A DNA stretch of 30,588 nucleotides, taken from IMG/VR virus record IMGVR_UViG_3300032738_000255, positions 1 through 30,588 of that record; one strand, written 5' to 3'. Within the stretch, counting starts at the first letter, position 1. Each line of letters begins with the position of its first letter. The position numbers were made by a program, and so were the translations under genes. The DNA is from a virus. This document shows, one piece after another, positions 7,168 to 28,463 of the stretch. The notes below the pieces were generated by a model. It had not been told where the DNA came from and made no database searches. It worked only from the letters and a program-made list of their open reading frames with translations.

Positions 7168-8514
7168 CTACACGCTCCGCATCTTCTTGATGTTCTTGAT
7201 GAGCACCATCGCATCGAGGTCCTCGATGGTCGCGTCGTACTCATCGAAGATGACGATCTCCAGGTGGTCCGTGTTCTTCTCCCAGCCGACATGCATCCGG
7301 GTATGCAGACCCTTGATGGCGACGAGATTGGAGGGGTCCGTGAGCATCATGTAGGTGCCCTCGTAACGGGTGCCTGCGGTCCCGGCATCGGAGCCGGTGG
7401 CGGTGCTCGCGGTCAGACCGAGGATGGTGTAGCAATCCAGTGCCACGGCCATGACCTCGACTTCGGTCGCCACGCCGGTGTTCTCGCAGTAGATGAGAAG
7501 GTGGCCATCCCAGTCGCGTGCAACGACACGACCGAATGCCGTGTTGAGCGCCTCGGCGATCTGCGACGTGGTGCGGGCCTTGCCTGCGGTCAGGGCGAGG
7601 GTTTTCGTTACGTTGCCATAGGCCCCGTCATCGATGCGCACCTTCAGTCCGGTCGTCGAGCCGGCAGTGATGGTGAACGGGCCGGTGTTGACGGACTTGA
7701 CCTGCGCCGGGGTCGCCGCCATGATGCTGACTTCCTTGCTCTTCGGGATGGCGCTGATCGGCAGGGCCGGCGCGTCCGGGAAGATCATGTCCTGGTAGCC
7801 GGGCCCAGTGAGCGCCTGCTCCAGGATATTGCCACCGGTCTTGGTCGCCAGGTAGCGCCGATAGTCACGCCGCAGCCCCATGTTGCAGAGCCACTTGGTC
7901 TTGTCGGTCACCGCCGAGTCGGGGTACATGTCCAGAGCCTCGAAGAGCAGGTCAGCATCGATCTCAGCACCGCCTGCGTCCAGCACCCGGGCCTGCTGCG
8001 CCTGGAGATACCATCCGTCGAAGGTCTTGAGCAACATCGAGTACTTGTCGGTGCCGGCCGCATAGGTCGTGGTGTCTCCCTCGAAGCACACCAGTTCCAC
8101 GTCGACGCCGTGCCTGTTTTCGATGCCGGCCAGCACTGCCGCCTCGAAGGTGGACTTTCCGCCCGCCGCGTGCAGCAGGGACTTGTAGGACAACTCGATG
8201 CGGACCTTGACGGTCTGGCCCGAATACGAGATGGCGTCCAGCTTGGGCTGGCCGGTCTGGGCGGTCGTTTCCGTCTCTTCCGCCTTGGCGGTGATCGGCT
8301 CACCCCAGTGCATCCGAGGCATCTCGCCGTCGAGGTTTTCGACCTGTTCGAACCGGGCGAACTGGTCGAGGAACACGCGGGAACCGCGCACCAACTGCGC
8401 CCATTCCTTCTGCTGGTCCGGGTTCATCAGAGCCCCGGAAGCGAAGTCGGATTCGAGGATCGCTTTCCTGAATCGGTTTCGGTCCGAAATGACATCAAGC
8501 AGTTTGTCGCTCAT
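7168..8514 (-). CDS. Major capsid protein, HK97 fold, with an inserted domain
   Basis: This encodes 448 residues with an ATG at 8514 behind GAGGAGAGTACC. The N-terminal helix and the E-loop-like segment (MPRMHWGEPITAKAEETETTAQTG...) are followed by KVRIELSYKSLLHAAGG, a helical domain containing WLCNMGLRRDYRRYLATK, and a typical capsid ending (YMMLTDPSNLVAIKGLHTRMHVGWEK... then FDEYDATIEDLDAMVLIKNI). The LTDPSNL and final strand are characteristic of HK97-fold coat proteins. Residues of about 263-383 look like an inserted beta domain (FTITAGSTTGLKVRIDDGAY...), flanked by ALPISAIPKSK and the return to the core. The gene follows the protease/scaffold gene, as expected. Confidence 0.85.
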   Translation of the reverse strand: MSDKLLDVISDRNRFRKAILESDFASGALMNPDQQKEWAQLVRGSRVFLDQFARFEQVENLDGEMPRMHWGEPITAKAEETETTAQTGQPKLDAISYSGQTVKVRIELSYKSLLHAAGGKSTFEAAVLAGIENRHGVDVELVCFEGDTTTYAAGTDKYSMLLKTFDGWYLQAQQARVLDAGGAEIDADLLFEALDMYPDSAVTDKTKWLCNMGLRRDYRRYLATKTGGNILEQALTGPGYQDMIFPDAPALPISAIPKSKEVSIMAATPAQVKSVNTGPFTITAGSTTGLKVRIDDGAYGNVTKTLALTAGKARTTSQIAEALNTAFGRVVARDWDGHLLIYCENTGVATEVEVMAVALDCYTILGLTASTATGSDAGTAGTRYEGTYMMLTDPSNLVAIKGLHTRMHVGWEKNTDHLEIVIFDEYDATIEDLDAMVLIKNIKKMRSV

Positions 8515-8570
8515 GGTACTCTCCTCGCTTTGGCCACATGGACCGGTTCAGTCAATGCCCTCCAGGGCGC

Positions 8571-9725
8571 TTACACCTTATCGAGGTCGATGATCGACCC
8601 GCCGAATGTCGAAAACTTCGGCTTCTTTCCTTCGGGCGTCGGTTCCGCCGGCGGCTGCGGCACCGGCTCCTGGCGGCTGGCGGCTGCGGCCAGGTCCGCT
8701 TTCTTCCGCTCCATGACAGCAATTTCTGCTGTGACTCGGGCCAACTCGTCCTGCTTGTCCTTCAGCGCCTTCTCGCCATCCTCTGCCGGCGTCGGCGTCG
8801 GCTCTACGGGTCCGGGCGGGTCCGCAACCGGAGGAGTTGCCGGAGGCTCTTCCACGGGCGGCTCGGCCGCGGGGGGAGGCTCGACAACCGGAGGCTCCTC
8901 GCCCGGGGGCGGGTCTGCCGGAGGATCAGCGGGCGGATCCGCAGGTGCCGGGTCCGCGGGAGGGTCCTCTGCCGGGGGTTCCGCCGCGGGGGGATCAGCA
9001 GCAGGCGGATCGGCCGCGGGAGGATCGGCCGCGGGAGGATCGGCAGGAGGAGCCCCGCCGTCGCCCTTCAGCGCCTTCAGAACCGAACCGACGATCCTCT
9101 CAACGATGCCGCTTTCCTTGCCGAGTGCTTTCTCGACGGCTTTTTCCAGTTCGTCCTTGTGCATGCTGAGAACCTCCCTACCGAACGACTTGACGTAGAA
9201 ATCCAGGAGCTTCGCTCGCTCCTGTACGGGGACGGAGGTCATCGACAACTCGACGACTCGCTCCCATGCCTCAATGATAATCCTGAACTCGTCAGGTGTG
9301 TCGATGATGCGATACTCGGACGGGTATGCATGGATGGAGAATGAATCGATCCGTCCGTCCATGACCTTAGCGGGAACACTATCCGCATCTTCCAGGAGGT
9401 ATTCATCCTTTCCGAGCGCAAGCCATCCCTTGATCCAGACTGCCGGCTCCTTCGCCACATACTTGGCTTCGACGACGCGGCCAATCTCCTGGTCCGGGTT
9501 GTGGTTGTGGAGCATTACCACGTCTGCGATTTTCGCAGCGAGGTCTTTCATGCCGGCTTCGCTGATCTCATCGCCATAGGTGTCTACGGATCCATGACTG
9601 GCGTAGCCTTCCACCCACAATTTCCGCTCTTCGGCCTCTCCATCCTCTGCTTTGATGACTTCCAGGTAACTCTTTTGCAGGCTGAAGTTGGCTTTGAATA
9701 GGGGCATGGCGAGGCTTCGCTTCAT
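8571..9725 (-). CDS. Prohead protease with proline-rich linker and scaffold-like C-terminus
   Basis: This encodes 384 residues from the ATG at 9725, which has GGAGGT six bases upstream; the GTG at 9737 overlaps that site. Residues 1-170 are an HK97/U35-type prohead protease: VEGYASHGSVDTYGD, a catalytic-His region VVMLHNHNPDQEIGRV (H73/H75), a Ser region GRIDSFSIHAYPS (S128/S130), and VVELSMTSVPVQERAKL. Residues 224-314 are a Pro/Ala/Asp/Glu repeat. Residues 320-350 form a probable coiled coil (LKDKQDELARVTAEIAVMERKK), and the last 18 residues form a conserved-looking tail. A protease fused to a scaffold is known from P2 gpO; this arrangement, directly before the capsid gene, points to the same dual role. 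Confidence 0.85.
   Translation of the reverse strand: MKRSLAMPLFKANFSLQKSYLEVIKAEDGEAEERKLWVEGYASHGSVDTYGDEISEAGMKDLAAKIADVVMLHNHNPDQEIGRVVEAKYVAKEPAVWIKGWLALGKDEYLLEDADSVPAKVMDGRIDSFSIHAYPSEYRIIDTPDEFRIIIEAWERVVELSMTSVPVQERAKLLDFYVKSFGREVLSMHKDELEKAVEKALGKESGIVERIVGSVLKALKGDGGAPPADPPAADPPAADPPAADPPAAEPPAEDPPADPAPADPPADPPADPPPGEEPPVVEPPPAAEPPVEEPPATPPVADPPGPVEPTPTPAEDGEKALKDKQDELARVTAEIAVMERKKADLAAAASRQEPVPQPPAEPTPEGKKPKFSTFGGSIIDLDKV
8784..9056 (-). repeat. Degenerate tandem repeat encoding a (A)DPPA proline-rich linker
   Basis: This stretch inside the protease/scaffold gene encodes about 91 residues of mostly Pro, Ala, Asp and Glu. The clearest DNA units are 15 bases (GGATCGGCCGCGGGA on the plus strand) at 9007-9021 and 9022-9036, with a partial third copy following. 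Such repeats are prone to length change by slippage. The linker probably separates the protease from the scaffold helix. Confidence 0.8.
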
Positions 9726-9741
9726 GTGGACCTCCACGCAA

Positions 9742-9802
9742 AGGGTACTTGTGCCTCTGCCACATTGTCAAACTGTTTTTTGAAAGCGTGCCTTTATGTC
9801 AA
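9742..9802 (-). promoter_or_regulatory. Candidate promoter region for the protease/capsid genes
   Basis: The 105 bases between the metallo-beta-lactamase-like gene and the protease contain two TTGACA boxes on the minus strand, at 9797-9802 and 9766-9771. The second is followed after 18 bases by TACCCT (9742-9747), a weak -10 match; the first has no convincing -10. Both boxes are followed by AGGCAC further downstream, so the segment looks partly duplicated. The region is AT-richer than its surroundings, including a run of six A on the minus strand. It would give extra transcription of the highly expressed head genes. Confidence 0.45.
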
Positions 9803-9830
9803 GTAAGGCGTGTGGTTTGCCATCATGGCA

Positions 9831-10871
9831 CTACGCATCGTCTGGTTGTGGATCAGCCGTCGGCCTGGCGACTGCTTGCGGTGCTGCGCCCTTGAGGCAC
9901 AAGTCAAACAGTTCCACGGCCCCGGATGGTGCGGGTTCACCGAAACTGAATTCTATCTTGTCTCGCAGATCGTGACCTACCAGTGCCGCCAGTTGGGCCT
10001 TGAGTGCGTCGCTCGGGTCGCCGGCCACGTGGATGGTTGGCTTGCCGTCCGTCTCGCTCATCGAAACCCAACCCTTCGCCAGCACCAGGTCCTCGGTTGT
10101 TTCGCGCAGCACCTTGACCGCCCCATCGGAAAGCGCCAGACGATCCCCACGCATCAGCGGAGTGACGTTCGCCGGCAGGTCGACTGCCTTCGAGTGCCAC
10201 CCATCGGACCCGTAGGCAACCAGGAACGTCGGCATCTCGGCGGGGAGCGACTTCAGCCCAAGATACTCGGGGTCCGATCCGTCGACCTGGCCAACGCCAA
10301 GAAGGAGCACGTCGGGACTCAACTCTTCCATCATGCCACCGAACGACCGGACATGAGGGGCCAGCAGCACCTTGCAGCCGCCTGCTTCGATGAGGAACGC
10401 ACTGGACTGCTCTCCGGCTTCATGCCGCACTCGGATCGCCTTGACCATCCCGCCACACACCGGAAAGGACGGAACACGCCCGCCGCTTTCCATGAGCGGA
10501 GACAGCGTCTTGCGGTTCTCTCCGTAGGCAACTACCTCGCAGCCGAGTCGCTCGAAGAGTCCCATGCCGGCCCGCACCAGGTGGTTCTCGTGCGTGAGCA
10601 AGACAGCCCCGATGGCCTTCGCACCAGAGCCATAGCGCCACAACTGTTGCTCGATGTCGGGGCCTGGGTCCACCACCGCAGAGCGACCATTGCCTTCTAT
10701 CAGCAGCCCGAAGGACATGTCGTGCGCCTTCATTACCTGCCGCACGTCGGTCCCGAGTATGGTGATGGTGAGTTCTGGTGAGCCGCCACCGAAGCCCTTC
10801 TTCAGCATGTTGACAAGCCATGCGAATGCCGGGTGGCCGGCGTGTGCCGTGTTGAATCTTCGCAGTCCCAT
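9831..10871 (-). CDS. Metallo-beta-lactamase-fold-like protein with degenerate metal motif
   Basis: This encodes 346 residues from the ATG at 10871 (GGAGG upstream). Residues 35-100 look like a metallo-beta-lactamase-fold core: a strand with ILGTD, FGLLIEGNGRSAVVDPGPD (strand-turn-strand with an Asp), and IGAVLLTHENHLVRAGMG where active members carry THxHxDH. Later segments (VRHEAGEQSSAFLIEAGGCKVLLAPHV, then SPDVLLLGVGQ) also fit the fold. The metal motif keeps only H94, N96 and H97 and lacks the Asp and final His, so hydrolase activity is doubtful. The C-terminal 100 residues are an added region ending in a Pro-rich tail. It sits among head genes between MuF and protease. The role is unknown, and the fold call is by eye. 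Confidence 0.5.
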   Translation of the reverse strand: MGLRRFNTAHAGHPAFAWLVNMLKKGFGGGSPELTITILGTDVRQVMKAHDMSFGLLIEGNGRSAVVDPGPDIEQQLWRYGSGAKAIGAVLLTHENHLVRAGMGLFERLGCEVVAYGENRKTLSPLMESGGRVPSFPVCGGMVKAIRVRHEAGEQSSAFLIEAGGCKVLLAPHVRSFGGMMEELSPDVLLLGVGQVDGSDPEYLGLKSLPAEMPTFLVAYGSDGWHSKAVDLPANVTPLMRGDRLALSDGAVKVLRETTEDLVLAKGWVSMSETDGKPTIHVAGDPSDALKAQLAALVGHDLRDKIEFSFGEPAPSGAVELFDLCLKGAAPQAVARPTADPQPDDA

Positions 10872-11065: not shown

Positions 11066-12802
11066 CTAAGGCAACCACTCGAAAGTGGCGTCCGCATTCT
11101 CGTGCAGGAACTGCTGCACCGGTGCGACGCCGTTCACGCGCACAGTCAGCAACTCTCGCATGGTCGCATTGGTATTGAACGACACGCCGAGTCGCTTGAA
11201 CAGGTCGCGCATCTTCCGCTTGTCCAGCCATGCCCCGAACTCGCCGGCCGTCTGCGCCTCGAGGTGCCAGTCCAGCAATGCCTCTGCCGTCCGTCCGGTG
11301 TTCGAACCGAGCGGAAGGACCATCCTGGCTTTCACTCCAGCCTTGCCCGCTACCTTCTCCAAGGCCTTCCCGATGCGCTCGATTGTCGAGCAAGGCATCT
11401 TCACCATGGCTTCGTTGACGACGGCAATGGTGTCGCTGGTGGCGGCGACCATCCACCGTGCAGCCAGCCACCCGGTGTCCTTCTTCGACCAGTTCGTTGT
11501 CATGGAAAACGCATCGTCAGTCGAGTTCCAGGTATACGACTGGTTGAGGAAGCGCTCGCCGTATTCCGAGACGCCCGCGATGCCTTGCAATTCGTCCACG
11601 CGGTATTGCTCTGCCACGGCCGGCACTTTCTTACCCTGCTGTGCCAGGATGGAGGCGGCAGATGCAGCGTTCTTGGTGACCGTGACCTTTGCCTCTGAGG
11701 TCCTCGTCTCTGTCCACGAGCGCCGCTCCTCTTCCGACTCTTCCTTGAACACGCCGATCAGTTCGCTGCGGCAGTTGCCGTGAAGAGGAGGGACCACCCT
11801 CCCGGAAGCCTTCAGCTCGTCCAGTTCAACCTCGTGTCTACCCTCGGACGTGCTCTCGAACCACGTCTGCTCCTTCGTCTCCGGGTCGACCGTGACTGAC
11901 AGCCAGGGCTGCGCGTCCATGGCCTGCTCGGGCGTGGTGGAGTTCTCGACGTTGGTGACGATCTCCATGAGCTTGACCGTCTTGAACTCGTTGCCGTGGA
12001 GGCTCTGGCAGACCTCCGATGTCCGTTTATCCATCGGGTTGAAGAACCTCACGATCTCGATATCGAGACGAGCCATCTCCCGCATCCTCGAAAAGACACG
12101 GGCCCGGTTCATGGCGGCACTCGCAACGACGGCCCATCTGCTCTCTTCCACCTGGTAGGCATGGCCGAGCGCCGAGCGCAGGTTCTCAGCGATGGTCTTG
12201 CGGCCGAGTCCTTTGTCGAGGCCTTCCTTCACCACCTTCGCCAGGCCGGGCTCGATATTCCGGTGCCCCCCCGTCTTCACCCAATACAGGTTGTTGTTGG
12301 CGAGGTGCTGAGTAGCCTTCACGTCCTGGAGGTTGTAGTTCTTGATGACGCCCGCGGCTCCGCTCAGTCCCTCCGCACGAATGCCGGCTGCCTTCGCTGC
12401 CTCCGCAGATGACTGCGTTTGCTCGCGGACGAACAACTTCGACATCTCGTCCTTGACCTCCTGCCCCATGGGGATACCGATGCGCTCTTCAGACAGTCGC
12501 ACGAAGTCATCCCACAGCCCGGGACGAAAGCCTACATCGCCGGCCGCGGTGTAGACCAGATTCCCAGGTAGAGCCATCTCGTCTAGGATATCCTTGACCG
12601 GACCCGCCTCGAGGAATGCGCCTGCCTTGGAGCGAAACGAAGTGGCCAGGACCTCGTCTAGATCCAACTCCCAGAGTGCCGCTCGCCGGATGGCTGGCAG
12701 TGGGTGGTGGACTGCATCGAAGAGCATCCCGGACTTGATGAGCCGCATTGTCCGCATGGCGTTCAAGAGAGCCTCATCATATGGCGACGATGGCTTTCGC
12801 AT
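11066..12802 (-). CDS. MuF-like minor head protein (SPP1 gp7 family) with extra C-terminal domain
   Basis: This encodes 578 residues. Residues 180-350 carry the MuF/SPP1 gp7 signature: helices with GLGRKTIAENLRSALGHAYQVEESRWAVVAS and NRARVFSRMREM, then FNPMDKRTSEVCQSLHG (C265, H269) and VPPLHGNCRSEL (H341, C344). These Cys/His residues are the family's usual metal-type motif. The protein enters the head with DNA in SPP1-type phages. Residues of about 360-578 form a further region of mixed alpha/beta composition that I cannot assign; MuF proteins often carry variable C-terminal effector domains. The ATG at 12802 lies inside the portal gene with a weak ribosome site; a TTG or ATG about 40-50 bases downstream is an alternative start. 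Confidence 0.8.
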   Translation of the reverse strand: MRKPSSPYDEALLNAMRTMRLIKSGMLFDAVHHPLPAIRRAALWELDLDEVLATSFRSKAGAFLEAGPVKDILDEMALPGNLVYTAAGDVGFRPGLWDDFVRLSEERIGIPMGQEVKDEMSKLFVREQTQSSAEAAKAAGIRAEGLSGAAGVIKNYNLQDVKATQHLANNNLYWVKTGGHRNIEPGLAKVVKEGLDKGLGRKTIAENLRSALGHAYQVEESRWAVVASAAMNRARVFSRMREMARLDIEIVRFFNPMDKRTSEVCQSLHGNEFKTVKLMEIVTNVENSTTPEQAMDAQPWLSVTVDPETKEQTWFESTSEGRHEVELDELKASGRVVPPLHGNCRSELIGVFKEESEEERRSWTETRTSEAKVTVTKNAASAASILAQQGKKVPAVAEQYRVDELQGIAGVSEYGERFLNQSYTWNSTDDAFSMTTNWSKKDTGWLAARWMVAATSDTIAVVNEAMVKMPCSTIERIGKALEKVAGKAGVKARMVLPLGSNTGRTAEALLDWHLEAQTAGEFGAWLDKRKMRDLFKRLGVSFNTNATMRELLTVRVNGVAPVQQFLHENADATFEWLP

Positions 12803-14249: not shown

Positions 14250-15671
14250 TTACGCCGAGACATCGCTGATCGACGGTCCGACCTCGTAACCCCATTCTAG
14301 AAAATCATGCCTTTTCGAATTGCCCATTGCAAGTGCCATCACATGATCGAAGTGGTGGACCTCGCCATCCTCGTCCTCTGATTTGACGTGCCTCGTGTGG
14401 CGAACATCGCCTTCCTCGAACGTGATTAGTTGGTTGATGAGTTCCGGGTCGTCAAGCAGCCAGAGGCCTTCCGGGTTGTCTTCCTCGAGGTCGAAGTTGA
14501 GCGTCTCAAGTGACGTCGGCTTGCTAGTGCCGGTGGTCACGAACGCTTCCATGGTCGGCGTGTGGTAGCCGGCGACATCGAATTCCTTTGCGATGCGCTC
14601 GGCAAGAGCATGGCCTCCAATGGAGACCACCTCGGGCACGAAGCAGATGTACTCGGGCGGCACGCCGGCATCGATGAACTGCTGTGCGAACTTGTGCAAC
14701 TGCTTGAATTGGAAGTCGAAGCCCTTGCGGTAGATGGACTCGGTGGCGAGCATGTGACCATGCAGGTCCAACGCAGTGAAGATAGTCGGATCGCCGGTAC
14801 GGCCCCAGTCGATGGAGATGATGACGGGCAATGCGATAACCAGTTCCTTGCCGTCGGGCCATTTGCGGGGCCCCGGGTCCGGGAAGTATGCCTCGCCGGC
14901 CCCCAGGAAGATGGCGTGGACCTCCTGGCGCTGCTTGCGGCGGGACATGTTCCTGAGGACTTCCCGCAGTCGCGATGGCGTGATGTGAGGGTTGGTGTAA
15001 CTGCCGGCCTGCAGTGCCCATCTGCCGGCCTTCGGGCCGTGCTTCTTCATGGCGTGGATGGCCCGGTCGAACTCCTTCTTGAACCAGTTCGGGCCCTTGG
15101 GAGTGCCGTTGCCGATGACCATTCCGACGCGGCCAGGGCTGAAAAGGCAGGGCTGCAGGGCCTCGTCCCACGCCACCTTCTTTACAAGCCCGGCTTCGGT
15201 GATGACCAGGACGTCGAGGCCCACGGACGTGAGCGACTTCGGCTTGACGGCAGACTTCAACTCAATGAATATCTGTGGCTCCCGGTCGCCGGTGACCGTG
15301 CACTCCATTCGGTGCTTGGCTTCGTTGACCTTGACCTGGCAGATGTCCGGGATAAAGACCTTCATCTCATTCCAGAACTGCTCAAGGCGAGGATAGTCTG
15401 GAGCTACCACCCACACATGGACGAGCGGAACGAGGCTGCGATACCTGGCTCGGTTGTGCACTCGGCGGATTGCTATCTTGCTGCAGGCCCTCCACATCTC
15501 CTGGATCGTGGCGCGGTCCTTCCCCCACCGCCGCCCGCACACAAGCCACCGCCAAAGCAGATGGCCGTGCTTGTGGAAGTCAACCTGGCCTCCGTTGTGA
15601 GGCACGTAGGCTGACTCTTGCCGGATGAAGTCGGTCGGCTGAAATGATGGGGCTGCTCCGGTCAACGTCAT
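14250..15671 (-). CDS. terL: Terminase large subunit
   Basis: This encodes 473 residues, with a start overlapping the small-subunit stop (ATGA). The ATPase part has a Walker A-like CGRRWGKDR (residues 45-53) and a Walker B-like region VGLDVLVITEAG (E159), followed by a GNGTPKGPNWF coupling motif. The nuclease part begins with VIISIDWGRTGDPT (D288), has CFVPEVVSIGGHAL (E347), and ends with HHFDHVMALAMG (D442), matching an RNase H-like nuclease with three acidic residues. Two oddities: the Walker A Lys is followed by Asp instead of Ser/Thr, and Walker B reads TE instead of DE. The protein packages DNA into proheads with the small subunit and portal. Confidence 0.9.
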   Translation of the reverse strand: MTLTGAAPSFQPTDFIRQESAYVPHNGGQVDFHKHGHLLWRWLVCGRRWGKDRATIQEMWRACSKIAIRRVHNRARYRSLVPLVHVWVVAPDYPRLEQFWNEMKVFIPDICQVKVNEAKHRMECTVTGDREPQIFIELKSAVKPKSLTSVGLDVLVITEAGLVKKVAWDEALQPCLFSPGRVGMVIGNGTPKGPNWFKKEFDRAIHAMKKHGPKAGRWALQAGSYTNPHITPSRLREVLRNMSRRKQRQEVHAIFLGAGEAYFPDPGPRKWPDGKELVIALPVIISIDWGRTGDPTIFTALDLHGHMLATESIYRKGFDFQFKQLHKFAQQFIDAGVPPEYICFVPEVVSIGGHALAERIAKEFDVAGYHTPTMEAFVTTGTSKPTSLETLNFDLEEDNPEGLWLLDDPELINQLITFEEGDVRHTRHVKSEDEDGEVHHFDHVMALAMGNSKRHDFLEWGYEVGPSISDVSA

Positions 15672-16483
15672 TCCTCGTACTTGCCGTCGCCTTTCTTGAC
15701 TGAGTATGCCACACTGCGATGCCTGGAGTCCGGCTCTTCTGCCGTAAACTCGTCGTCGTCGCCTTCCTCTTCATCTGCCGGTGCGTCAATCGCTTGGCCA
15801 GTGCCGAGGCGCATGGCATCTGGCTCGGGGGGGTCTGGATAGGGGTCGTTGCCCCACTGCATGATGAGCGTCTTGTTTACCACTCGCTGCACGTGGTTGA
15901 GTGCGATGCTGACCTGGCCGGTCGTCATAATCTGGCCGAGCCTCGCTATCTGCGACAGCACGATAGGGCTCAACATCACCTTGCGATACATCAGAACTTC
16001 ACCCGACAGCACGTCTGCGCCGGCCTGCAAGAGGCTGTTTACTTTCGTCATCGCCTTGGCGTGGATGTACAGTTCGAACTCGATTGCTTTGAGCGCGGCC
16101 TCGGTGACCTTCTTGGTGCCGGAGAGGTAGGACTCCATGTGCCCGATGATCGCCAGTTTCGTCCGGTTGAGAAGGGCGTCCTCGCTGGTCCCCTCGACAT
16201 TCATCATGTCGCCTTGTGGAGCCATGCCCTCATCCTGCGACGTGGTCTTGCCGCCACTCACCCGACGCATGGCCGCGGTTATGAAAGCGTCCCGCTCACC
16301 ACGCCAACCCTTCTCTGTGATCTTCCGGGAGATGGTCACGCGGCCTACGTTCAACCCGAACTCCTCATTGATGATGGCTGCGATATTCGAGGGGCCTCCG
16401 AAGCGGGGCTTGCCGTCCGGCTCAAGCGTCAGAAAGAGTTGTCTTACCCTATCCCAAATGTGTAGTGGTATCCGCCCAGACAC
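15668..16483 (-). CDS. Terminase small subunit (probable)
   Basis: This encodes 271 residues. It starts with GTG at 16483 behind GGGAGGGCAACCT. The N-terminus looks like a helix-turn-helix DNA-binding domain: an F-G-G-P-SNIAAIINEEFG segment followed by VGRVTISRKITEKGW. A long helical middle with many Met, Leu and Ala residues fits oligomerisation. The C-terminus is acidic (ADEEEGDDDEFTAEEPD) and basic at the very end. Small subunits recognise packaging sites and stimulate the large subunit. It overlaps terL by four bases and is the first gene of the late block after the only longer intergenic region. Confidence 0.75.
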   Translation of the reverse strand: MSGRIPLHIWDRVRQLFLTLEPDGKPRFGGPSNIAAIINEEFGLNVGRVTISRKITEKGWRGERDAFITAAMRRVSGGKTTSQDEGMAPQGDMMNVEGTSEDALLNRTKLAIIGHMESYLSGTKKVTEAALKAIEFELYIHAKAMTKVNSLLQAGADVLSGEVLMYRKVMLSPIVLSQIARLGQIMTTGQVSIALNHVQRVVNKTLIMQWGNDPYPDPPEPDAMRLGTGQAIDAPADEEEGDDDEFTAEEPDSRHRSVAYSVKKGDGKYEE

Positions 16484-16503
16484 AGGTTGCCCTCCCGTAA
16501 CAG

Positions 16504-16532
16504 AGCGTATCTGAAATGCGTATCTGCGTCAA
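16504..16532 (-). promoter_or_regulatory. Sigma70-like promoter for the late (terminase) operon
   Basis: On the minus strand TTGACG (16527-16532) is followed after exactly 17 bases by TACGCT (16504-16509). The start codon of the small terminase lies about 20 bases further on. The -35 matches 5 of 6 consensus bases; the -10 matches T, A and the final T only. Location in the one intergenic region of more than 200 bases supports it. Confidence 0.5.
16505..16526 (-). repeat. Direct repeat GCGTATCTG x2 over the late promoter (possible operator)
   Basis: The 9-mer GCGTATCTG (plus strand) occurs at 16505-16513 and 16518-16526, a 13-base period. The first copy covers the proposed -10 box and the second lies in the spacer. 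A related copy, GCGTATCCG, lies at 16633-16641. This placement would suit a repressor or activator controlling late transcription. Confidence 0.4.
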
Positions 16533-16709
16533 GATGGGCCGCGAATGCGTGCGATTGCCTCTCTGCACGATCCGGGGGGCGTTTCGAGAGTTCAACTTTG
16601 CATGAGAAACGCGTAGCGGAGGTGCATCACGCGCGTATCCGACTGTAGCATTGACGGGCTTGGCGGGGTGGTCCTCGCGCGTGTGCGGTTAGCCTGCCCT
16701 ACTACAACT

Positions 16710-17489
16710 CTAGGTATCTTGTTCTACCACGCGCACAGGCGTAAGTCCCGTCTCTGCGAAGAAGCGCTCCAGACACACTGCGAGATACTTCGGTGCAAGT
16801 TCAACTCCCCGGCAGCGGCGGTTGGTGCGTTCGCAAGCAATCAGAGTCGAACCAGAGCCAAGGAACGGGTCAATGACCAAGTGTCCTGCAGCAGTGGAAT
16901 TCGAGAGGCACTGAAGAATCAGCGAGATGGGCTTCATGGTAGGATGCTCTTCGTTCCGAGACGGCTTGTCGTGTTCGAGGACGGTTGTCTGGCAATGGTC
17001 CCCATACCATTTGGAACCGGCATGGTCGCCGCGTCCCGACCGGCCTTGCCCTGGAGTCCATCCATACAGAATGTCCTCGTGCCTGTAGTGATAATCGCTG
17101 TGGCCGAGGACCATGGAACTCTTCACCCATACCAACGCCTGGTGAAACCTCCACTCTGCCTCCTGGAGGGCCAACCGGAATACTGTCCCCATGGGCCCAG
17201 CCGGTGCGGCGATGTAAAAAGGAGAGCCAGGCTCAAGGAAGTCGGTGACAGTGGCGAACGCCCTCCGCAGGAGGTCCGGCAGGTCTTTCGCCCCATCGTT
17301 GCCAATGACCAGTTCGTTCTTCGTCTTGCCGACGTAACTGACTCCATATGGTGGGTCCGTCCACATAGCGATAGCCTTCTCACCATCCATGACGGCAGCG
17401 ACGACCTCCTTGTCCGTCGAGTCTCCGCAGACGATCCGATGGCGATACTGAACCTCGGGCTCGAACTCATGTCCGCAATTACACTTCAT
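16710..17489 (-). CDS. DNA methyltransferase, DPPY type (N6-adenine or N4-cytosine), with N-terminal Cys motif
   Basis: This encodes 259 residues from the ATG at 17489, which overlaps the previous stop by 11 bases and has GGAG seven bases upstream. The order is that of beta-class methyltransferases: IVCGDST and TDPPYGVSY (DPPY at residues 45-48) near the N-terminus, HPTMKP in the middle, then the AdoMet motif VIDPFLGSGSTLIACER and GVELAPKYLAVCLERF at the C-terminus. DPPY favours adenine as the target. The N-terminus MKCNCGHEFEP is a Cys/His knuckle almost identical to that of the next gene upstream. It is the last gene of the modification island; its likely role is self-modification against restriction. 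Confidence 0.85.
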   Translation of the reverse strand: MKCNCGHEFEPEVQYRHRIVCGDSTDKEVVAAVMDGEKAIAMWTDPPYGVSYVGKTKNELVIGNDGAKDLPDLLRRAFATVTDFLEPGSPFYIAAPAGPMGTVFRLALQEAEWRFHQALVWVKSSMVLGHSDYHYRHEDILYGWTPGQGRSGRGDHAGSKWYGDHCQTTVLEHDKPSRNEEHPTMKPISLILQCLSNSTAAGHLVIDPFLGSGSTLIACERTNRRCRGVELAPKYLAVCLERFFAETGLTPVRVVEQDT

Positions 17490-18345
17490 TGAGTTTCTCC
17501 ACGGCCACGCCAAGGGTGGCCATCCGTTCAAGCGCAACTGCGATGTATTCAGGTGCGATGTCGATTCCGATGCAGCGCCGGCCGGCCTGCTCCGCTGCTA
17601 TGACGGTGGTGCCACTTCCGACGAAGGGGTCGCAGACAAAGTCTCCTGGAGCCGAGTATGCATCGATGACGAGCTTTGCGAAGGCAACGGAGAATGGCGC
17701 TGGATGCCCGGGGACTCCTCCATACTGGCGAGGCTCTCGGATAACGGAGTCGGGGATCTTGTGGCTCTGCACCTTCTTGTCTAGTCCATTCCATCCGCTC
17801 CTTCCGCCAGCTGCGTTTCTAAGCCCAGACGTATCGCCGGTGCTGGACAGACGGTGGAATTCCCCGGCACACTTGCACTCCACAATCTTGTTCGCCTGCC
17901 TGGCAGCAGCAGCGAAATGGAACACGAATTCATGCGATGGGCCCAGACGACCGTTCCAGTCTCCGGGGAGGGCGCATCCCTGATCCCACACATACCAGCC
18001 GAAAAGCGGGGCCCCTTCAGCCTCCATCCGTTCGAGAAGCGAGGTCCAATACATCACGACTCGTCGCTCGCGGTGCACCAGCCCAAGGTTGATGAGCGCC
18101 TGGTGGTCCGGGACGCCGTGGCTGTGGCAGTTGGCAATGACCGCCGGCACGACGGCATTCCAGTCAAAGCCAGTTCCGACCTTGTAGTCTCGCTGATTGC
18201 CATATGGTGGCGAAGTAAATGTGAGATGGACCAGAGGCTTTCCGGGGATTGCCTCGAACGCCTCTTTCGTGGTGGCGTCTGCGCAGACCAGGTAATGCCG
18301 GTGCTGGCGAACTGGCTCGAAGTCGTGTCCGCATGAGCATCTCAT
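17479..18345 (-). CDS. DNA methyltransferase, SPPY type (likely N4-cytosine), paralogue of its downstream neighbour
   Basis: This encodes 288 residues from the ATG at 18345, in an ATGA overlap with the ParB-like gene. It begins MRCSCGHDFEP and has VCADATTKEAF, then TFTSPPYGNQRDY (SPPY at 45-48, the same position as DPPY in the neighbour). It ends with VCDPFVGSGTTVIAAEQAGR and GIDIAPEYIAVALERM. SPPY is typical of N4-cytosine enzymes but also occurs in others. The middle holds a target-recognition region (FGWYVWDQGCALPGDWNGR...) not shared with the neighbour. Matching ends with differing middles suggest tandem duplication followed by divergence. Confidence 0.85.
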   Translation of the reverse strand: MRCSCGHDFEPVRQHRHYLVCADATTKEAFEAIPGKPLVHLTFTSPPYGNQRDYKVGTGFDWNAVVPAVIANCHSHGVPDHQALINLGLVHRERRVVMYWTSLLERMEAEGAPLFGWYVWDQGCALPGDWNGRLGPSHEFVFHFAAAARQANKIVECKCAGEFHRLSSTGDTSGLRNAAGGRSGWNGLDKKVQSHKIPDSVIREPRQYGGVPGHPAPFSVAFAKLVIDAYSAPGDFVCDPFVGSGTTVIAAEQAGRRCIGIDIAPEYIAVALERMATLGVAVEKLNEV

Positions 18346-18953
18346 GATAACTCGTGCACCTTGCCGCACTTCGGACAGGCCGTGAATGCTCCGAGGCCCC
18401 ATACATCGCCAACATTGGTCTTCCACTTCTCCCGCAACTTCTCAGCCGGGTCTGGCGGCGGATCGTCTCCACCTCCACCCGGCCCAGGTCCGGGCGGTTT
18501 CAGGCTTGCCAGCAACTCCGCTATGGTATCGTCTGCGAGTCCCGTAAACTCCACGTCGATGTCCGACAACTGAATCTCGCCGATGAGAACGCTGAGTGCT
18601 TCCACGTCCCACTCGCCAGCCGCGTCCTGTGAATTCAGCGCGATATTCAGCGCCTTCTCTTGCGGCGAGTTTGGCACAAGGTCTACCCAGGTGATATCCG
18701 CAGAGTCAATCCAGGATTGCCCCAGTTCGAGCAGGGCCTTGACGCGCTGGTGCCCGCCCACGATTCTCATTCCCTGCCGGTTCACGGTGATGGTCGTAGC
18801 CAGTCTGAGCCCGTCCTTGACGTCCCATCCCTCGACGGCTCCCGAGTGCTCTCGAATCAACGTCTTGAGTCTGGCCATGTGCTCGGGCGCAATCTTCCGG
18901 GGGTTGTAGTCTGAGGGTTCCAGGTCCGACAGTGGTATCTTCTTTCTTGCCAT
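18342..18953 (-). CDS. ParB/Srx-like nuclease-fold domain protein
   Basis: This encodes 203 residues with an ATG at 18953 behind GGGAG. The N-terminus has the ParB-like pattern: IPLSDLEPSDYNPRKI, then RIVGGHQRVKALLELG (GGHQR at 66-70) and NSPQEKALNIALN. A Pro/Gly linker (153-169) leads to EKWKTNVGDVWGLG and a CPKCGKVHEL ending. In many phage proteins this same ParB domain is fused, through KW...GDVW.LG, to a DPPY/SPPY methyltransferase. Here the chain stops after a CxxC and the methyltransferase follows as a separate, overlapping gene. The protein probably acts with the methyltransferase; whether it cuts or binds nucleotides is unknown. Confidence 0.8.
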   Translation of the reverse strand: MARKKIPLSDLEPSDYNPRKIAPEHMARLKTLIREHSGAVEGWDVKDGLRLATTITVNRQGMRIVGGHQRVKALLELGQSWIDSADITWVDLVPNSPQEKALNIALNSQDAAGEWDVEALSVLIGEIQLSDIDVEFTGLADDTIAELLASLKPPGPGPGGGGDDPPPDPAEKLREKWKTNVGDVWGLGAFTACPKCGKVHELS

Positions 18954-20240: not shown

Positions 20241-21632
20241 TTATCTTGCCATTCCCTCGTCCCTGGTCGGCACGGTCGGCGGGACGGTGACCCGAGTGCG
20301 CATCGAGCGTGGGTTGTCCTGCTGGTACTCGTAGCAGCCCCGGTCCATGCGTGGGCCGGACGGCGCGTGCTGTCCTGCCAGGTCGCTGCTCCTGCCGGAC
20401 GGCCACATGCCGGTGTCCAGGCACGGAGAGGCGAGCGAGAGGCTGTAGTCGTCGTTGGCGGCGTCCTGGAATAGGGGGTCAGTGTCGTCGAGGTCGGTGG
20501 CGGTCGCATTCCAGAACGCGAAAAAACCGGCTCCCGCCGCCTTGTTGCATACGTTGTAGCTACTCAGCACTTGTCCGGCAGTCGTGGAGTAGTAGCCCAG
20601 AGCCGTACTGCCATCGACGATACAGTTGCGGGCAGTCACGGACGCCGCAGGATTGTTTGAGCTCGTGAGCCCCTGGGCGACTGGACCCACCACAGTGAGG
20701 TTGCTCACGACGGACGCAGCCATGGCGGTGCCGCCGCCATCTATCTCCAGGGCCTTGTCGGTCCCGATGGCGGTGAATCCATACGCCAGCACGTCGGACA
20801 CCACCATCGCCCGGCGCAATGACCTCAGACCCCAAATGCGATCAGCGGTCAGGTCGTACACTCGGCATCTAGACACGGTGAGGACATCGAGATCGGCGGC
20901 ATTGTCGGACGAATTCACGCCCCAGATCCGGTTTTCATGGGATATGTCGTGAATGGAGCAGTCCGACACTGACGAGAGCGTCGCAGACGTGTCGACGTAT
21001 ATTGGATAAGCGTTCTGTGTCGCACCCGTAAGGGTGGCGTCCTTGATCTCGCAGCCAGTAACGGTCTGCGATGCGCCGTTCAGGTAGATCCCCGTCCAGT
21101 TCTGGTTCGTCGGGTCCACCGGGTTGTCTATCAGGATGTCGGTGAAAGTGACCGAGTTGCCCGTCGCAATGGCTGTGACCTGCGCCACGCCCGCCGCCCC
21201 GTTGGCCGTGAGCCGGAAGCCGCCGACGGTATTCGACGCCCCCGTGACCACGAACGGGTTTGCCCCGATGTAGCCGGTCATAACCACCCGGCCCGTGCCG
21301 TTGTTGACGTCGATGTCCCAGCCGGTGTTGGTGGCTGCGAGGGTCAGGAATGTCGCCGTGCCGCCCCCTCCGTCGAACGTGTAGTCGGCCTCGTAGTGGT
21401 TCCACGTCACGCCGGTGATGCCCGCGGCCGGTTGCAGGGTCTGGTTGTTCTCGGTGTACCCGCCGACGCCCCCATAGCTCTCGATCACGTCGTCGTTGGC
21501 CAGGGCGGCGAAGGCCGTCGCCATGACGGTGTAATCCTTTCCCGCCCCGACGGTGCAGACTCCGGCGGGACATGCGGCGTGGGCCACTGCTGGCAGGAGG
21601 CAGAGCAGGGCCGTAAGCAGTAGGCGTCTCAT
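20241..21632 (-). CDS. Secreted parallel beta-helix protein
   Basis: This encodes 463 residues, with a start in an ATGA overlap with the upstream gene. Residues 1-19 (MRRLLLTALLCLLPAVAHA) are a clear Sec signal peptide with an AHA-A cleavage site. The rest is rich in Gly, Thr, Asn, Val and Ile, with repeating short strands such as VSDCSIHDISHENRIWGVNSSDNAADLDVLTVSRCRVYDL. This pattern fits a right-handed parallel beta-helix of pectate-lyase or tailspike type. The ending (DPLFQDAANDDYSLSLASPCLDTG, then GCYEYQ) is a common ending of secreted bacterial beta-helix proteins. A signal peptide is odd for a virion protein, so it may act on the host envelope or outside the cell. No catalytic residues can be assigned. 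Confidence 0.75.
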   Translation of the reverse strand: MRRLLLTALLCLLPAVAHAACPAGVCTVGAGKDYTVMATAFAALANDDVIESYGGVGGYTENNQTLQPAAGITGVTWNHYEADYTFDGGGGTATFLTLAATNTGWDIDVNNGTGRVVMTGYIGANPFVVTGASNTVGGFRLTANGAAGVAQVTAIATGNSVTFTDILIDNPVDPTNQNWTGIYLNGASQTVTGCEIKDATLTGATQNAYPIYVDTSATLSSVSDCSIHDISHENRIWGVNSSDNAADLDVLTVSRCRVYDLTADRIWGLRSLRRAMVVSDVLAYGFTAIGTDKALEIDGGGTAMAASVVSNLTVVGPVAQGLTSSNNPAASVTARNCIVDGSTALGYYSTTAGQVLSSYNVCNKAAGAGFFAFWNATATDLDDTDPLFQDAANDDYSLSLASPCLDTGMWPSGRSSDLAGQHAPSGPRMDRGCYEYQQDNPRSMRTRVTVPPTVPTRDEGMAR

Positions 21633-22087
21633 TCTATTGCCTCCATGTCGGGCGGCACGATGACGACCGCGGGCTTGACTCCGGGCACCTTGACCATGGC
21701 TCCGTCACGGTATTCCCACTTGCGCAGGGCAAGGTCCTGGACGCTGAAGTCGGGCGGCAGGTCCACGTCGGCGGTGGCCAGCGGCTCCCGGTTCGGCCCC
21801 GGCCCCCACCGTTGCCCGTATGGCAGTGCGGCGATGACCACGCCCGTGCCCCGGTGGTAGCAGATGGTCATGGCCGGGTGCGCCACCACTTCCGCCGTCG
21901 GTTGCTCGGTGACGTCCGTGGGTTGAGCCACCACCTCGACGGCCACGACGTCCGCGGTCGCCACGACGTCCACCTTCACCGGCCTCGCGAACACGGCGAT
22001 CACGCCTGCGGCTATGAGGAGCAGGGCCCCGGCCGCGGCTGATGTCCCTGCGATCTTTCTATTCTCTTCGGCCGTGCGCGGGCTCAT
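21629..22087 (-). CDS. Single-pass membrane protein with Val-rich periplasmic part
   Basis: This encodes 152 residues from the ATG at 22087, overlapping the upstream stop (ATGA); the longer in-frame version is antisense-like. A charged N-terminus (MSPRTAEENRKIAG) is followed by one membrane segment at about residues 17-37 (AAGALLLIAAGVIAVFA) and then a Val/Ala/Thr-rich stretch and a compact C-terminus (WEYRDGAMVKVPG...). The expected topology is N-in, C-out. It is sandwiched between two signal-peptide genes and coupled to both. A lysis or anchoring role is possible but not shown. Confidence 0.65.
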   Translation of the reverse strand: MSPRTAEENRKIAGTSAAAGALLLIAAGVIAVFARPVKVDVVATADVVAVEVVAQPTDVTEQPTAEVVAHPAMTICYHRGTGVVIAALPYGQRWGPGPNREPLATADVDLPPDFSVQDLALRKWEYRDGAMVKVPGVKPAVVIVPPDMEAIE

Positions 22088-23235
22088 CGGGTGTTCCCGT
22101 TTGTGTAGGACAGGACGCGCATCTGGGGGTTGGTCGCTGGCTCGGTCACCGCGCTGATCATGATCAGCACCAGGTAGGAGGCGTGGGTACGGATCAGCGG
22201 CTGGCTGATGACGGCCTTGGTGGCGTCCCGGGCCACCTTCCACTGTGGCACGACGAGAGCCCCGACGCTCATCCATGCGTCGAAGTCGTAGACCGCCGAG
22301 GGAATGTCGTTCGTGGTCAAGATTATCAGGTCGTACTCGAAGTCGTTCGTGTCGTCGTCGGTGGCCGTGATCGTGATCTCGTGCAGATCCTTTGCCGGTG
22401 GCAGCACGTAGAGTTTCAGCGGCAAGTTGGTGTCAGCGGGTTCCAGGTCGTTGTGATCGATGACGCCGTGCAGCGCGTCGTGGCCTCCGCCGGTGGTGAC
22501 GTCCAGCCACGATGCCTCCTGGTCGACGTCCAGGCTGTCGATCGCCGTGCCCGCGGCGATGCTGACCGGCTGCGTCACTTGCCAGAATGTTCCCGACACG
22601 GGCTGCGTGACCTGATAGAAAGCACCTGATACCGGCTGGGTCACCTGCCAGAACGTGCCGTCCACGGTCAGCGAGACGTTGTCCACCGTGACGTTGTGCC
22701 CGTCCGGCAGTTGGTTGGCCTTGCTGGCGAGCAATCCGATCTGGTCTGTAGCCAGCGCGACGGGAGACGAGGCCGCGGCCAGCGCCGCGCCCGGGGCGAG
22801 CGTCTTGCTGTCGATGCTGGCGGTGTCGAGGAGCATGTCGTTGGTGTCTGCCAGGATGAGCAGCGAGGTCGTGTCCCTCGCAGCGCCGACGGGCAGCGTT
22901 ATCGTCCCGGAGATGTCGTTGATATCCCACGTCCCGGATTGGCTCACTGCCCAGACGGTCCTGACGACCCCGAGCGCGTCGACCGCTATGGTGTGCAGTG
23001 CGTCCAGGGTGTGGCCCAGAGCCGTCCCGTCCGCGGCGTGGATATTGGCGTCGATGCCAGCAGCCGGAGCAGTGCACTCCACCCGCAAGAGGTCGTCAAC
23101 CCCACCCCCAAAGGTGTAATGATGCTTCTGGCCATCCCATCCCGTGAATGTCTGAATGTTCTGCGCACTCGCCGGCATCGCTGCCAGGAGCACGACTGCG
23201 AGTGCGATTACTGCGATGGTTATTCTCTTCAGCAT
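22084..23235 (-). CDS. Secreted protein with TFWQVTQPVSG repeats
   Basis: This encodes 383 residues from the ATG at 23235, which has GGAGG five bases upstream. Residues 1-24 (MLKRITIAVIALAVVLLAAM then PASA) are a Sec signal peptide. Residues 193-225 are three 11-residue repeats of the form GTFWQVTQPVS. Such PVSG-type repeats are widespread in phage structural proteins, usually without a signal peptide. The C-terminal 130 residues look like a beta-sandwich (LHEITITATDDDTNDFEYDLIILTTND..., WMSVGALVVPQWKVA). It heads the exported cassette and is coupled to the membrane protein and the beta-helix protein. Its function is unknown. Confidence 0.72.
   Translation of the reverse strand: MLKRITIAVIALAVVLLAAMPASAQNIQTFTGWDGQKHHYTFGGGVDDLLRVECTAPAAGIDANIHAADGTALGHTLDALHTIAVDALGVVRTVWAVSQSGTWDINDISGTITLPVGAARDTTSLLILADTNDMLLDTASIDSKTLAPGAALAAASSPVALATDQIGLLASKANQLPDGHNVTVDNVSLTVDGTFWQVTQPVSGAFYQVTQPVSGTFWQVTQPVSIAAGTAIDSLDVDQEASWLDVTTGGGHDALHGVIDHNDLEPADTNLPLKLYVLPPAKDLHEITITATDDDTNDFEYDLIILTTNDIPSAVYDFDAWMSVGALVVPQWKVARDATKAVISQPLIRTHASYLVLIMISAVTEPATNPQMRVLSYTNGNTR
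22561..22659 (-). repeat. Three 33-base tandem repeats encoding GTFWQVTQPVS
   Basis: This is an in-frame tandem repeat inside the secreted-protein gene. The three 11-residue units differ at only two positions (GTFWQ, GAFYQ, GTFWQ), while synonymous sites differ more. That suggests selection on the protein sequence rather than very recent duplication. Confidence 0.85.
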
Positions 23236-23291
23236 GTGTTCCTCCAAGAAGATTCTACCCGCACAGAGCATAACTGCTCGGCTTGCCTTGG

Positions 23292-23567
23292 TCAACGGGT
23301 TCGCTTCTCCTCGTTTCTGCGATACGCCTCGTCCATTGCCTCAACGCACCCGTCCTGCACCGTTCTGCATTTGCAGCGCACCGGATGGAAAGGCTCGACG
23401 CGTGGCAGTCCCTCGCTGTTGCGCTTCCAGTTCACCCACAGCCAGCGCGGCAGCCAGATCGGAGTGCAGAGAATAGTCAACGTCCACAGCAAGAGGCGGA
23501 TGACCCGAAGATATCCTTCCTCAATCACAAAAAATAGGCTGTCCGCTGCACTCTCTTTCTTCTTCAT
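23292..23567 (-). CDS. Small membrane protein with Cys-containing tail
   Basis: This encodes 91 residues from the ATG at 23567, overlapping the upstream stop by four bases. After MKKKESAADSLFFVIEEGY there is one hydrophobic, Trp-rich segment (VIRLLLWTLTILCTPIWLPRWLWV, about residues 22-46). It is followed by a basic tail with CKC and a lone Cys and a charged C-terminus. One transmembrane helix with a cytoplasmic tail is likely. It could be part of a lysis system, but no endolysin lies nearby to support that. Confidence 0.6.
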   Translation of the reverse strand: MKKKESAADSLFFVIEEGYLRVIRLLLWTLTILCTPIWLPRWLWVNWKRNSEGLPRVEPFHPVRCKCRTVQDGCVEAMDEAYRRNEEKRTR

Positions 23568-27445: not shown

Positions 27446-28069
27446 CTACGAGCCGTTTGTGTCTTCGACCTTTCCGCCAGGCCGTGCCGGGTAAACGAAC
27501 TTCGCGGCCCGCAACATCTCTTCTCTGACTGCCTTGTCCGCAAACTCCGCTGCCGTCATCTTCAACTCAGCAACACCTTCTTGCCGGATCGTCACGTCGC
27601 CAGTCTCGTCGTCGACCGACATCTTGAGTACCGCAACGGCGTCGGTTACGCCGGGGAGTCCGGTTGCCAAAGGCTCTCCGTCAACCCTCTCCGCTCCGTA
27701 TCCGAACCGTCCATCGGGCAGCACCTTCTCGATAAGCCTCCACTCGAACGGGCTCCCGTCCAGTTGGATGCCGACGCGTGTCTGCCCTATCAAGGTGGCC
27801 AGGACGCCCTCAAGCCAGTTGGCCCGGTCCGTGAGCTTGCTGAACACCAGTTCCAGCTTGGACTGGTCTGCGTCGGTCATAATCGGGGTTGGCTCGGCCG
27901 CGGGAGTGCGCGCCGGCGCGATGGCTCCATTTTCGGTCCACTCCTTGGACCACTCATCGATGATGGCCGTCAGTGCCTTGGCGGCGACTTTCTCGGCTCG
28001 ATGGCCCCACCGTTTTCCTACTACCAGAGCAGCGGCACTTACCGCCGTGCAGATAACCTCAGTCCACAT
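27446..28069 (-). CDS. Hypothetical protein with hydrophobic N-terminus (207 aa)
   Basis: This encodes 207 residues from the ATG at 28069, overlapping the upstream gene by 11 bases; a TTG at 28087 is the alternative. The N-terminus (MWTEVICTAVSAAALVVGKRWG) is hydrophobic and may be a membrane or amphipathic helix. It is followed by a long helix, a Pro-rich linker, and a C-terminal region with ADQSKLELVFSKLTDRANWLEG and a strand-rich segment. No function can be assigned. It lies between replication genes. Confidence 0.6.
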   Translation of the reverse strand: MWTEVICTAVSAAALVVGKRWGHRAEKVAAKALTAIIDEWSKEWTENGAIAPARTPAAEPTPIMTDADQSKLELVFSKLTDRANWLEGVLATLIGQTRVGIQLDGSPFEWRLIEKVLPDGRFGYGAERVDGEPLATGLPGVTDAVAVLKMSVDDETGDVTIRQEGVAELKMTAAEFADKAVREEMLRAAKFVYPARPGGKVEDTNGS

Positions 28070-28463
28070 CGTTTTCGTCCGTTTCAAGTTCGAGTGCCAT
28101 GGCGACCGACGCCCGGCATTCCGCGCACTGTTGTTTCAAACTGTCCGATGTCGGCAGGCAGTCGTTCATGGCTGCCCGTACCGGAGATCCCGGCTCGCAC
28201 GCCCACCCCTCCAGCGAGCACTTGACCTTGGAGTCGAGCAGTTCCCACGGCGGATCGGGCGTGTAGTCAGGTGGAGCGACCCCGACTTCCTGCAAGCGGC
28301 GCACTACCGCAAGGAGGTCCCGCCGGTCGCACAGCAGCAATTCTTGCGCTACCCCGGTCAGCGGTCCAGACGTGGCGCGGTCGCGTTTGTCTCGTATCGC
28401 CATGTCGAGTAGGGTTTGCTCGTCAATTTCCGTTGCCACCCCATGCCTGATGTGCATGCTCAT
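28059..28463 (-). CDS. Hypothetical small protein (134 aa)
   Basis: The start at 28463 overlaps the upstream stop (ATGA). The helical N-terminal half (IDEQTLLDMAIRDKRDRA, then LLLCDRRDLLAVVRRLQEVG) is followed by a Cys-containing region with five Cys and an acidic C-terminus. A zinc-binding role is possible but the spacing is irregular. No family recognised. Confidence 0.6.
   Translation of the reverse strand: MSMHIRHGVATEIDEQTLLDMAIRDKRDRATSGPLTGVAQELLLCDRRDLLAVVRRLQEVGVAPPDYTPDPPWELLDSKVKCSLEGWACEPGSPVRAAMNDCLPTSDSLKQQCAECRASVAMALELETDENDVD

Follow-up and report, generated by a model that had tools for sequence, protein, structure and literature searches.

The window, meaning the whole 30,588-base stretch of DNA that was analyzed, is a viral contig record and probably a fragment. 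On its minus strand lie three coupled genes, P1, P2, and P3, and from their sequences we conclude that the virus probably exports part of a surface-acting toolkit from the infected cell. Export of P1 and P3 is well supported at the sequence level: both have true starts and signal peptides, and similar coupled exported cassettes are found on other phage contigs. Exported sets of this type recur across dozens of uncultured viruses.

All main genes of the window are encoded on the minus strand, in the order early genes, the P1-P2-P3 trio, a small gene, a Dam-type methyltransferase, a ParB-like gene, two more methyltransferases, and then TerS, TerL, portal, MuF-like, capsid, sheath, and tape measure genes. 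The early genes beside the trio encode a beta clamp (phrog_947, 3e-53) and a helicase-loader-like protein. This order bears out the earlier note, which had placed the cassette between the early genes and the modification island and outside the virion block. A metallo-beta-lactamase-fold-like gene (positions 9831-10871; weak matches) adjoins the MuF-like gene in the head block. Another contig (L011:1-2556) encodes a TerL 100% identical to that of the window with a different methyltransferase region before TerS (compared with window 15668-18426); thus, the modification island has been swapped between near-identical phages.

Each of the three genes begins at an ATG. P1 (22084..23235, minus strand) is a 383-aa open reading frame for a predicted exported, fiber-like SQSGTWDI/PVSG-repeat protein that has relatives in a repeat family. 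P2 (21629..22087, minus) encodes a 152-aa single-pass membrane protein, and P3 (20241..21632, minus) encodes a 463-aa exported protein predicted to form a right-handed beta-helix. The P1/P2 and P2/P3 junctions are both exact 4-base ATGA overlaps, confirming the coupling proposed from the first reading of the sequence. Third-position GC is 0.81-0.84 across the trio (0.84 in P1), similar to TerL (0.78) and the major capsid gene (0.85), so all three genes are coding. In P1 and P3, GGAGG ribosome sites lie immediately 5' of the ATG that opens the signal peptide. A sigma-70-like promoter candidate, TTGACC-17-TATGCT (23267..23295, minus), falls within the 56-bp gap upstream of P1; it is the sole match in the region, where 0.8 would be expected by chance, so its frequency is at chance level. 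The transcription-signal scan of the region found no terminator on the trio strand.

We rated signal peptides with a simple home-made score for n, h, and c regions, the result of which depends on start-codon choice. P1 scored 6.46, a value reached by none of 2000 shuffles, and P3 scored 6.02, reached by three of 2000. These are the top scores of the window; the only others above 5 are P2, where the score stems from the membrane segment, and a TTG-start frame (27446-28087), where the segment is followed by charged residues. The P1 signal peptide is MLKRITIAVIALAVVLLAAMPASA, with a predicted cut before Q (23164..23235, minus), and that of P3 is MRRLLLTALLCLLPAVAHA, with a predicted cut before AC (21576..21632, minus). 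At their true starts, both proteins show the n, h, and c regions, while P2 shows a membrane segment only (residues about 13-34; 21986..22051, minus; located by hydropathy). Thus, the Sec signal peptides that the earlier note had assigned to two of the proteins, with a membrane protein flanked by the exported pair, stand. A cleavable signal is unlikely in P2 because the n-region is long and charge follows the segment, and its orientation is uncertain because basic residues are found on both sides. We infer that both P1 and P3 are cut by signal peptidase and accumulate outside the cytoplasm, in the periplasm or beyond. The cassette proteins showed neither an outer-membrane anchor nor a secretion domain, which suggests that in a diderm host they would stay periplasmic until lysis and act there or after lysis.

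P1 resembles other proteins mainly through its repeat motif. The SQSGTWDINDISGT motif (22879..22944, minus), identified by alignment, is common to its phage relatives, and motifs of this type are shared by many viral proteins. Sequence inspection shows three (F)WQVTQPVS-type repeats at residues 193-226 (22558..22659, minus). Family searches gave no assignment for P1, no relatives were found in annotated phages or plasmids, and P1 as a single query had no match in genome contigs. Its single-sequence structure model is useless (pLDDT 34). P2 likewise had no match in family searches or in the fetched loci, and viral contigs gave no detectable relatives of it.

The beta-helix assignment of P3 is drawn from several weak matches. 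P3 scored 18.9 bits against Beta_helix PF13229 (E=0.0012), below the cut-off of 25.9, and was also under the cut-off for PF17161 (E=0.0025). Its single-sequence model is all-beta but of low confidence (pLDDT 46, core 50-74), which lends weak support to the fold. The fold matches include polysaccharide lyases and tailspikes, P22 and Det7-like among them; none is significant (E > 0.001 throughout), and they fit a beta-helix in general terms. The end of P3 (20313..20489, minus) resembles the choice-of-anchor Q domain NF041518, with a match at residues 395-437 that scores 20.9 bits against a curated cut-off of 25. The mature part of P3 holds nine cysteines, and no catalytic residues could be named. 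P3 had no relatives in viral contigs, annotated phages, or the fetched loci, and a sequence search of solved structures gave no match.

To place P1 among its relatives, we used a profile scan, which recovered 67 viral and three genome loci (set 1), along with a second set of relatives of the repeat protein from phage record MW202554.1 (set 2). Signal peptides open about 10 of the 59 distinct repeat proteins in set 1 and are carried by 20 of the 27 distinct set 2 loci with a visible start; these fractions are no estimate of prevalence, because the sets were found with different queries and the second query was picked for bearing a signal. By eye, two or three further set 1 members bear signals (L070, L081, and L083). 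Duplicate contigs were removed by hand for these tallies and kept in the neighbor count. Proteins that are not related may also be grouped by repeat motifs. The premise of the earlier note that a signal peptide is normally absent from PVSG proteins holds in part: signal-less relatives do adjoin virion genes, but signal-bearing members are found in both sets. In L060, L071, and L078, the signal directly precedes the N-terminal motif that opens signal-less relatives, and the signal-bearing L078 protein matches the signal-less L075 protein at 52% over 158 aa.

In set 1, signal peptides were found in 17 of 128 neighboring frames around signal-bearing repeat proteins versus 7 of 518 around signal-less ones (Fisher 4e-8), where the greedy gene calls contain false frames equally in both groups. 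This enrichment indicates that signal peptides occur as cassettes. Among signal-bearing neighbors of repeat proteins, there are two matches to polysaccharide lyase 14 and matches to apiosidase (1e-41), LamG, fn3, and DUF4082, and a few neighbors match minor tail protein profiles; one signal-bearing protein of 1392 aa has a tail-fiber C-terminus (L065; phrog_863, 6e-13). These predicted partners point to surface or matrix polysaccharide. The window shares the defining arrangement, a signal-bearing PVSG-type protein (P1) grouped with another signal-bearing gene (P3) on a phage contig. Because the fetched loci contain no match to P2 or P3, and P1 matches through repeats only, the trio is linked to this class by type, not orthology. 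The search for the trio in other phages that the earlier note had suggested turned up recurring exported cassettes of like type and no relatives of P2 or P3 in viral contigs.

Related cassettes showed two further features. A C-terminal tag like LLGVG/LMGAG, three or fewer residues from the end, occurs in 13 of 91 signal-bearing versus 8 of 722 other frames (Fisher 2e-8), a pattern picked after the data were seen and with several of the eight "other" frames looking signal-bearing by eye. Tagged proteins stand next to repeat genes in L089 (10800-11591), L098, L106, L107, L109, L112, L117, L122, L127, and others; the tag is absent from the window trio. Twin-arginine (Tat-type) signals were seen at L060:8975-11179 and L078:7805-8731 (MITRRRAS..., MTLFIPRRRL...). 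In G308, the record of L106, the TerL match includes two in-frame TAA codons and the portal match one TAG, which may reflect an intron, a frameshift, or recoding.

The genomic position of these cassettes varies. Cassettes follow the major capsid gene in L060 (PF20911, 3e-132), baseplate and tail-fiber genes in L015, and the portal gene in L058; in L007 the cassette lies between TerL-like and portal-like genes (named by eye), and in L085 it lies in a stretch that resembles, by eye, the tail block of a P2-like prophage in Sphingomonas. The window cassette lies before methyltransferase and terminase genes. Among signal-less members, the L075 relative is found just before terminase and portal genes, and a repeat-family member in L005 follows a putative capsid gene. 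Few matches came from scanning the signal-bearing records with terminase and portal profiles. A constant type with a varying position is the pattern expected of an accessory module. In addition, L012, whose TerL is related to that of the window (29%), encodes four signal or membrane proteins between portal-like and MuF-like genes, one of them with YadA-head repeats; this set is similar in kind to the trio and is not homologous. The L012 TerL frame (7600-9909; 769 aa) has an apparent intein insertion, identified by eye.

The closest parallel to the window cassette comes from a complete circular phage, podovirus ctLwi270 (MW202554.1; locus L089). Its gene order is portal, signal-bearing repeat protein, unknown, LamG, GH28 beta-helix, and capsid (the last named by eye). 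As in the window, a signal-bearing PVSG-type protein is followed by further signal-bearing genes with short overlaps and the beta-helix last; unlike the window, there are four exported genes, located in the head block, with LamG and GH28 domains, and they are undescribed in the record. The annotated start of the GH28 beta-helix is 11627 of locus L089, and a GTG at 11588, overlapping the preceding stop, restores a signal peptide. A signal-bearing gene at about 10213-10800 is missing from the annotation. The GH28 beta-helix had no relatives in viral contigs.

A second parallel is found in Sphingomonas sp. JC676 (L081:7629-12200), which encodes an exported trio of a repeat protein, a DUF4082-like protein, and a beta-helix-like protein. 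Like the window trio, these are three adjacent overlapping genes, with a repeat protein first, a small protein second, and a beta-helix-like protein third; they differ in lying on a bacterial chromosome near a tRNA-Arg, where no phage genes were seen for about 15 kb, and in the 1031-aa length of the third protein. None matches P2 or P3 in sequence. We considered whether the trio is a family of the genus Sphingomonas and rejected this, as this trio is found in one of 295 genomes, with a prophage-borne relative in another; it is therefore no core host system.

Based on these comparisons, the best explanation, held at about even confidence on sequence evidence, is an accessory exported cassette directed at surfaces or glycans. 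The trio would serve a contractile-tailed phage as a moron-like accessory cassette, translated as a single coupled unit and sent out through the host Sec pathway. P1 would be a fiber-like repeat protein and P3 a beta-helix of a glycan-binding or glycan-cleaving kind, while P2 would remain in the inner membrane. P1 and P3 may bind or trim polysaccharide of the surface or matrix, on the infected cell and in its surroundings, which could help progeny leave and spread or prevent their rebinding to debris. Several findings count against this reading: no outer-membrane anchor or secretion domain, a link of the window trio to the class by type, no catalytic residues that could be named in P3, a chance-level promoter site, and signal peptides called by a simple score. 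Exclusion and conversion morons such as Lom, Bor, Cor, HK97 gp15, and TP-J34 Ltp are single small membrane proteins or lipoproteins. Like the trio, they are phage-coded, exported or membrane-bound, and outside core operons; unlike it, they include no fiber-like repeat proteins with beta-helices. Phage tailspikes of the P22 type attach to the virion through an N-terminal anchor and lack a signal peptide. They share with P3 a right-handed beta-helix (predicted in P3) and a probable glycan target, but P3 has a signal peptide where they carry the anchor. We did not classify P3 as a phage tailspike, given this signal peptide and a gene position before methyltransferase and terminase genes.

The earlier note had taken export to suggest action on the living cell, by receptor masking, exclusion of other phages, or release of an enzyme. 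Export itself is supported by the starts, the signals, and the recurring cassettes, but the living host is one option only: given signal-bearing relatives in virion blocks and the signal-less L075 protein beside terminase and portal genes, exported proteins may serve the virion or the post-lysis surroundings. In one such scheme, they would be adhesins of the virion: folding would take place in the periplasm, and attachment to heads or tails would wait until lysis brings the compartments together. The virion-block cassettes of L060, L015, and MW202554.1, the tail-fiber C-terminus in L065, and the position of L075 all fit this scheme. Yet the window cassette lies outside its virion block, the JC676 trio stands without phage genes, glycan enzymes do not need a virion, and we know of no tailed phage that assembles exported fibers, so we consider it unlikely. 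If the proteins were instead ordinary virion decoration proteins with hydrophobic N-termini that do not lead to export, as signal-less family members beside head genes (L005) might suggest, one would have to dismiss the textbook n-h-c layout and AxA sites seen in two trio proteins and in many clustered neighbors of relatives, along with scores that shuffles of P1 and P3 reached zero and three times in 2000; this seems very unlikely.

Action on the living cell, by receptor masking or superinfection exclusion, is quite unlikely in our estimate. Exclusion factors, known or proposed, include phage proteins with signal peptides and phage membrane proteins (PMC11437467). P2 is predicted to be membrane-bound, and the cassette may have its own promoter, if the chance-level sigma-70-like site is functional. 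Still, the exclusion proteins known so far are lipoproteins or membrane proteins of small size rather than repeat fibers with beta-helices, and no sign supports surface display or lysogen expression. We regard a lysis module, with P2 as holin or inner spanin and P1 and P3 acting on the wall, as highly improbable: none of the three proteins matched a muramidase, amidase, or peptidase, and P2 has no obvious coiled coil. No lysis gene was recognized in the window, although the window is a fragment; the trio does occupy a common position for lysis genes, before the terminase genes, and small membrane coiled-coil genes are found near other signal cassettes (L078, L023, and MW202554.1).

The fibers of tailed phages are thought to be built in the cytoplasm, and most of the known phage proteins that are exported are small factors for exclusion or conversion. 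Exported phage proteins are already known as a kind, while a widely recurring exported fiber-plus-beta-helix cassette is apparently undescribed; we found no description of such a class in the open-access literature searched, which is no proof of absence. A bolder and rather doubtful proposal is that many uncultured phages Sec-export fiber-type and glycan-active sets, whose proteins reach maturity in the periplasm and at lysis cover progeny virions or cell debris. The accessory surface- or glycan-directed cassette remains our preferred reading, and an exported set of fiber-like and glycan-type proteins recurs in dozens of uncultured phages and one complete phage genome. If export is real, it would add an extra stage late in the infection cycle, in which the envelope or matrix is conditioned before and after lysis; alternatively, it may represent a novel means of producing surface parts of the virion, by a second, extracytoplasmic route.
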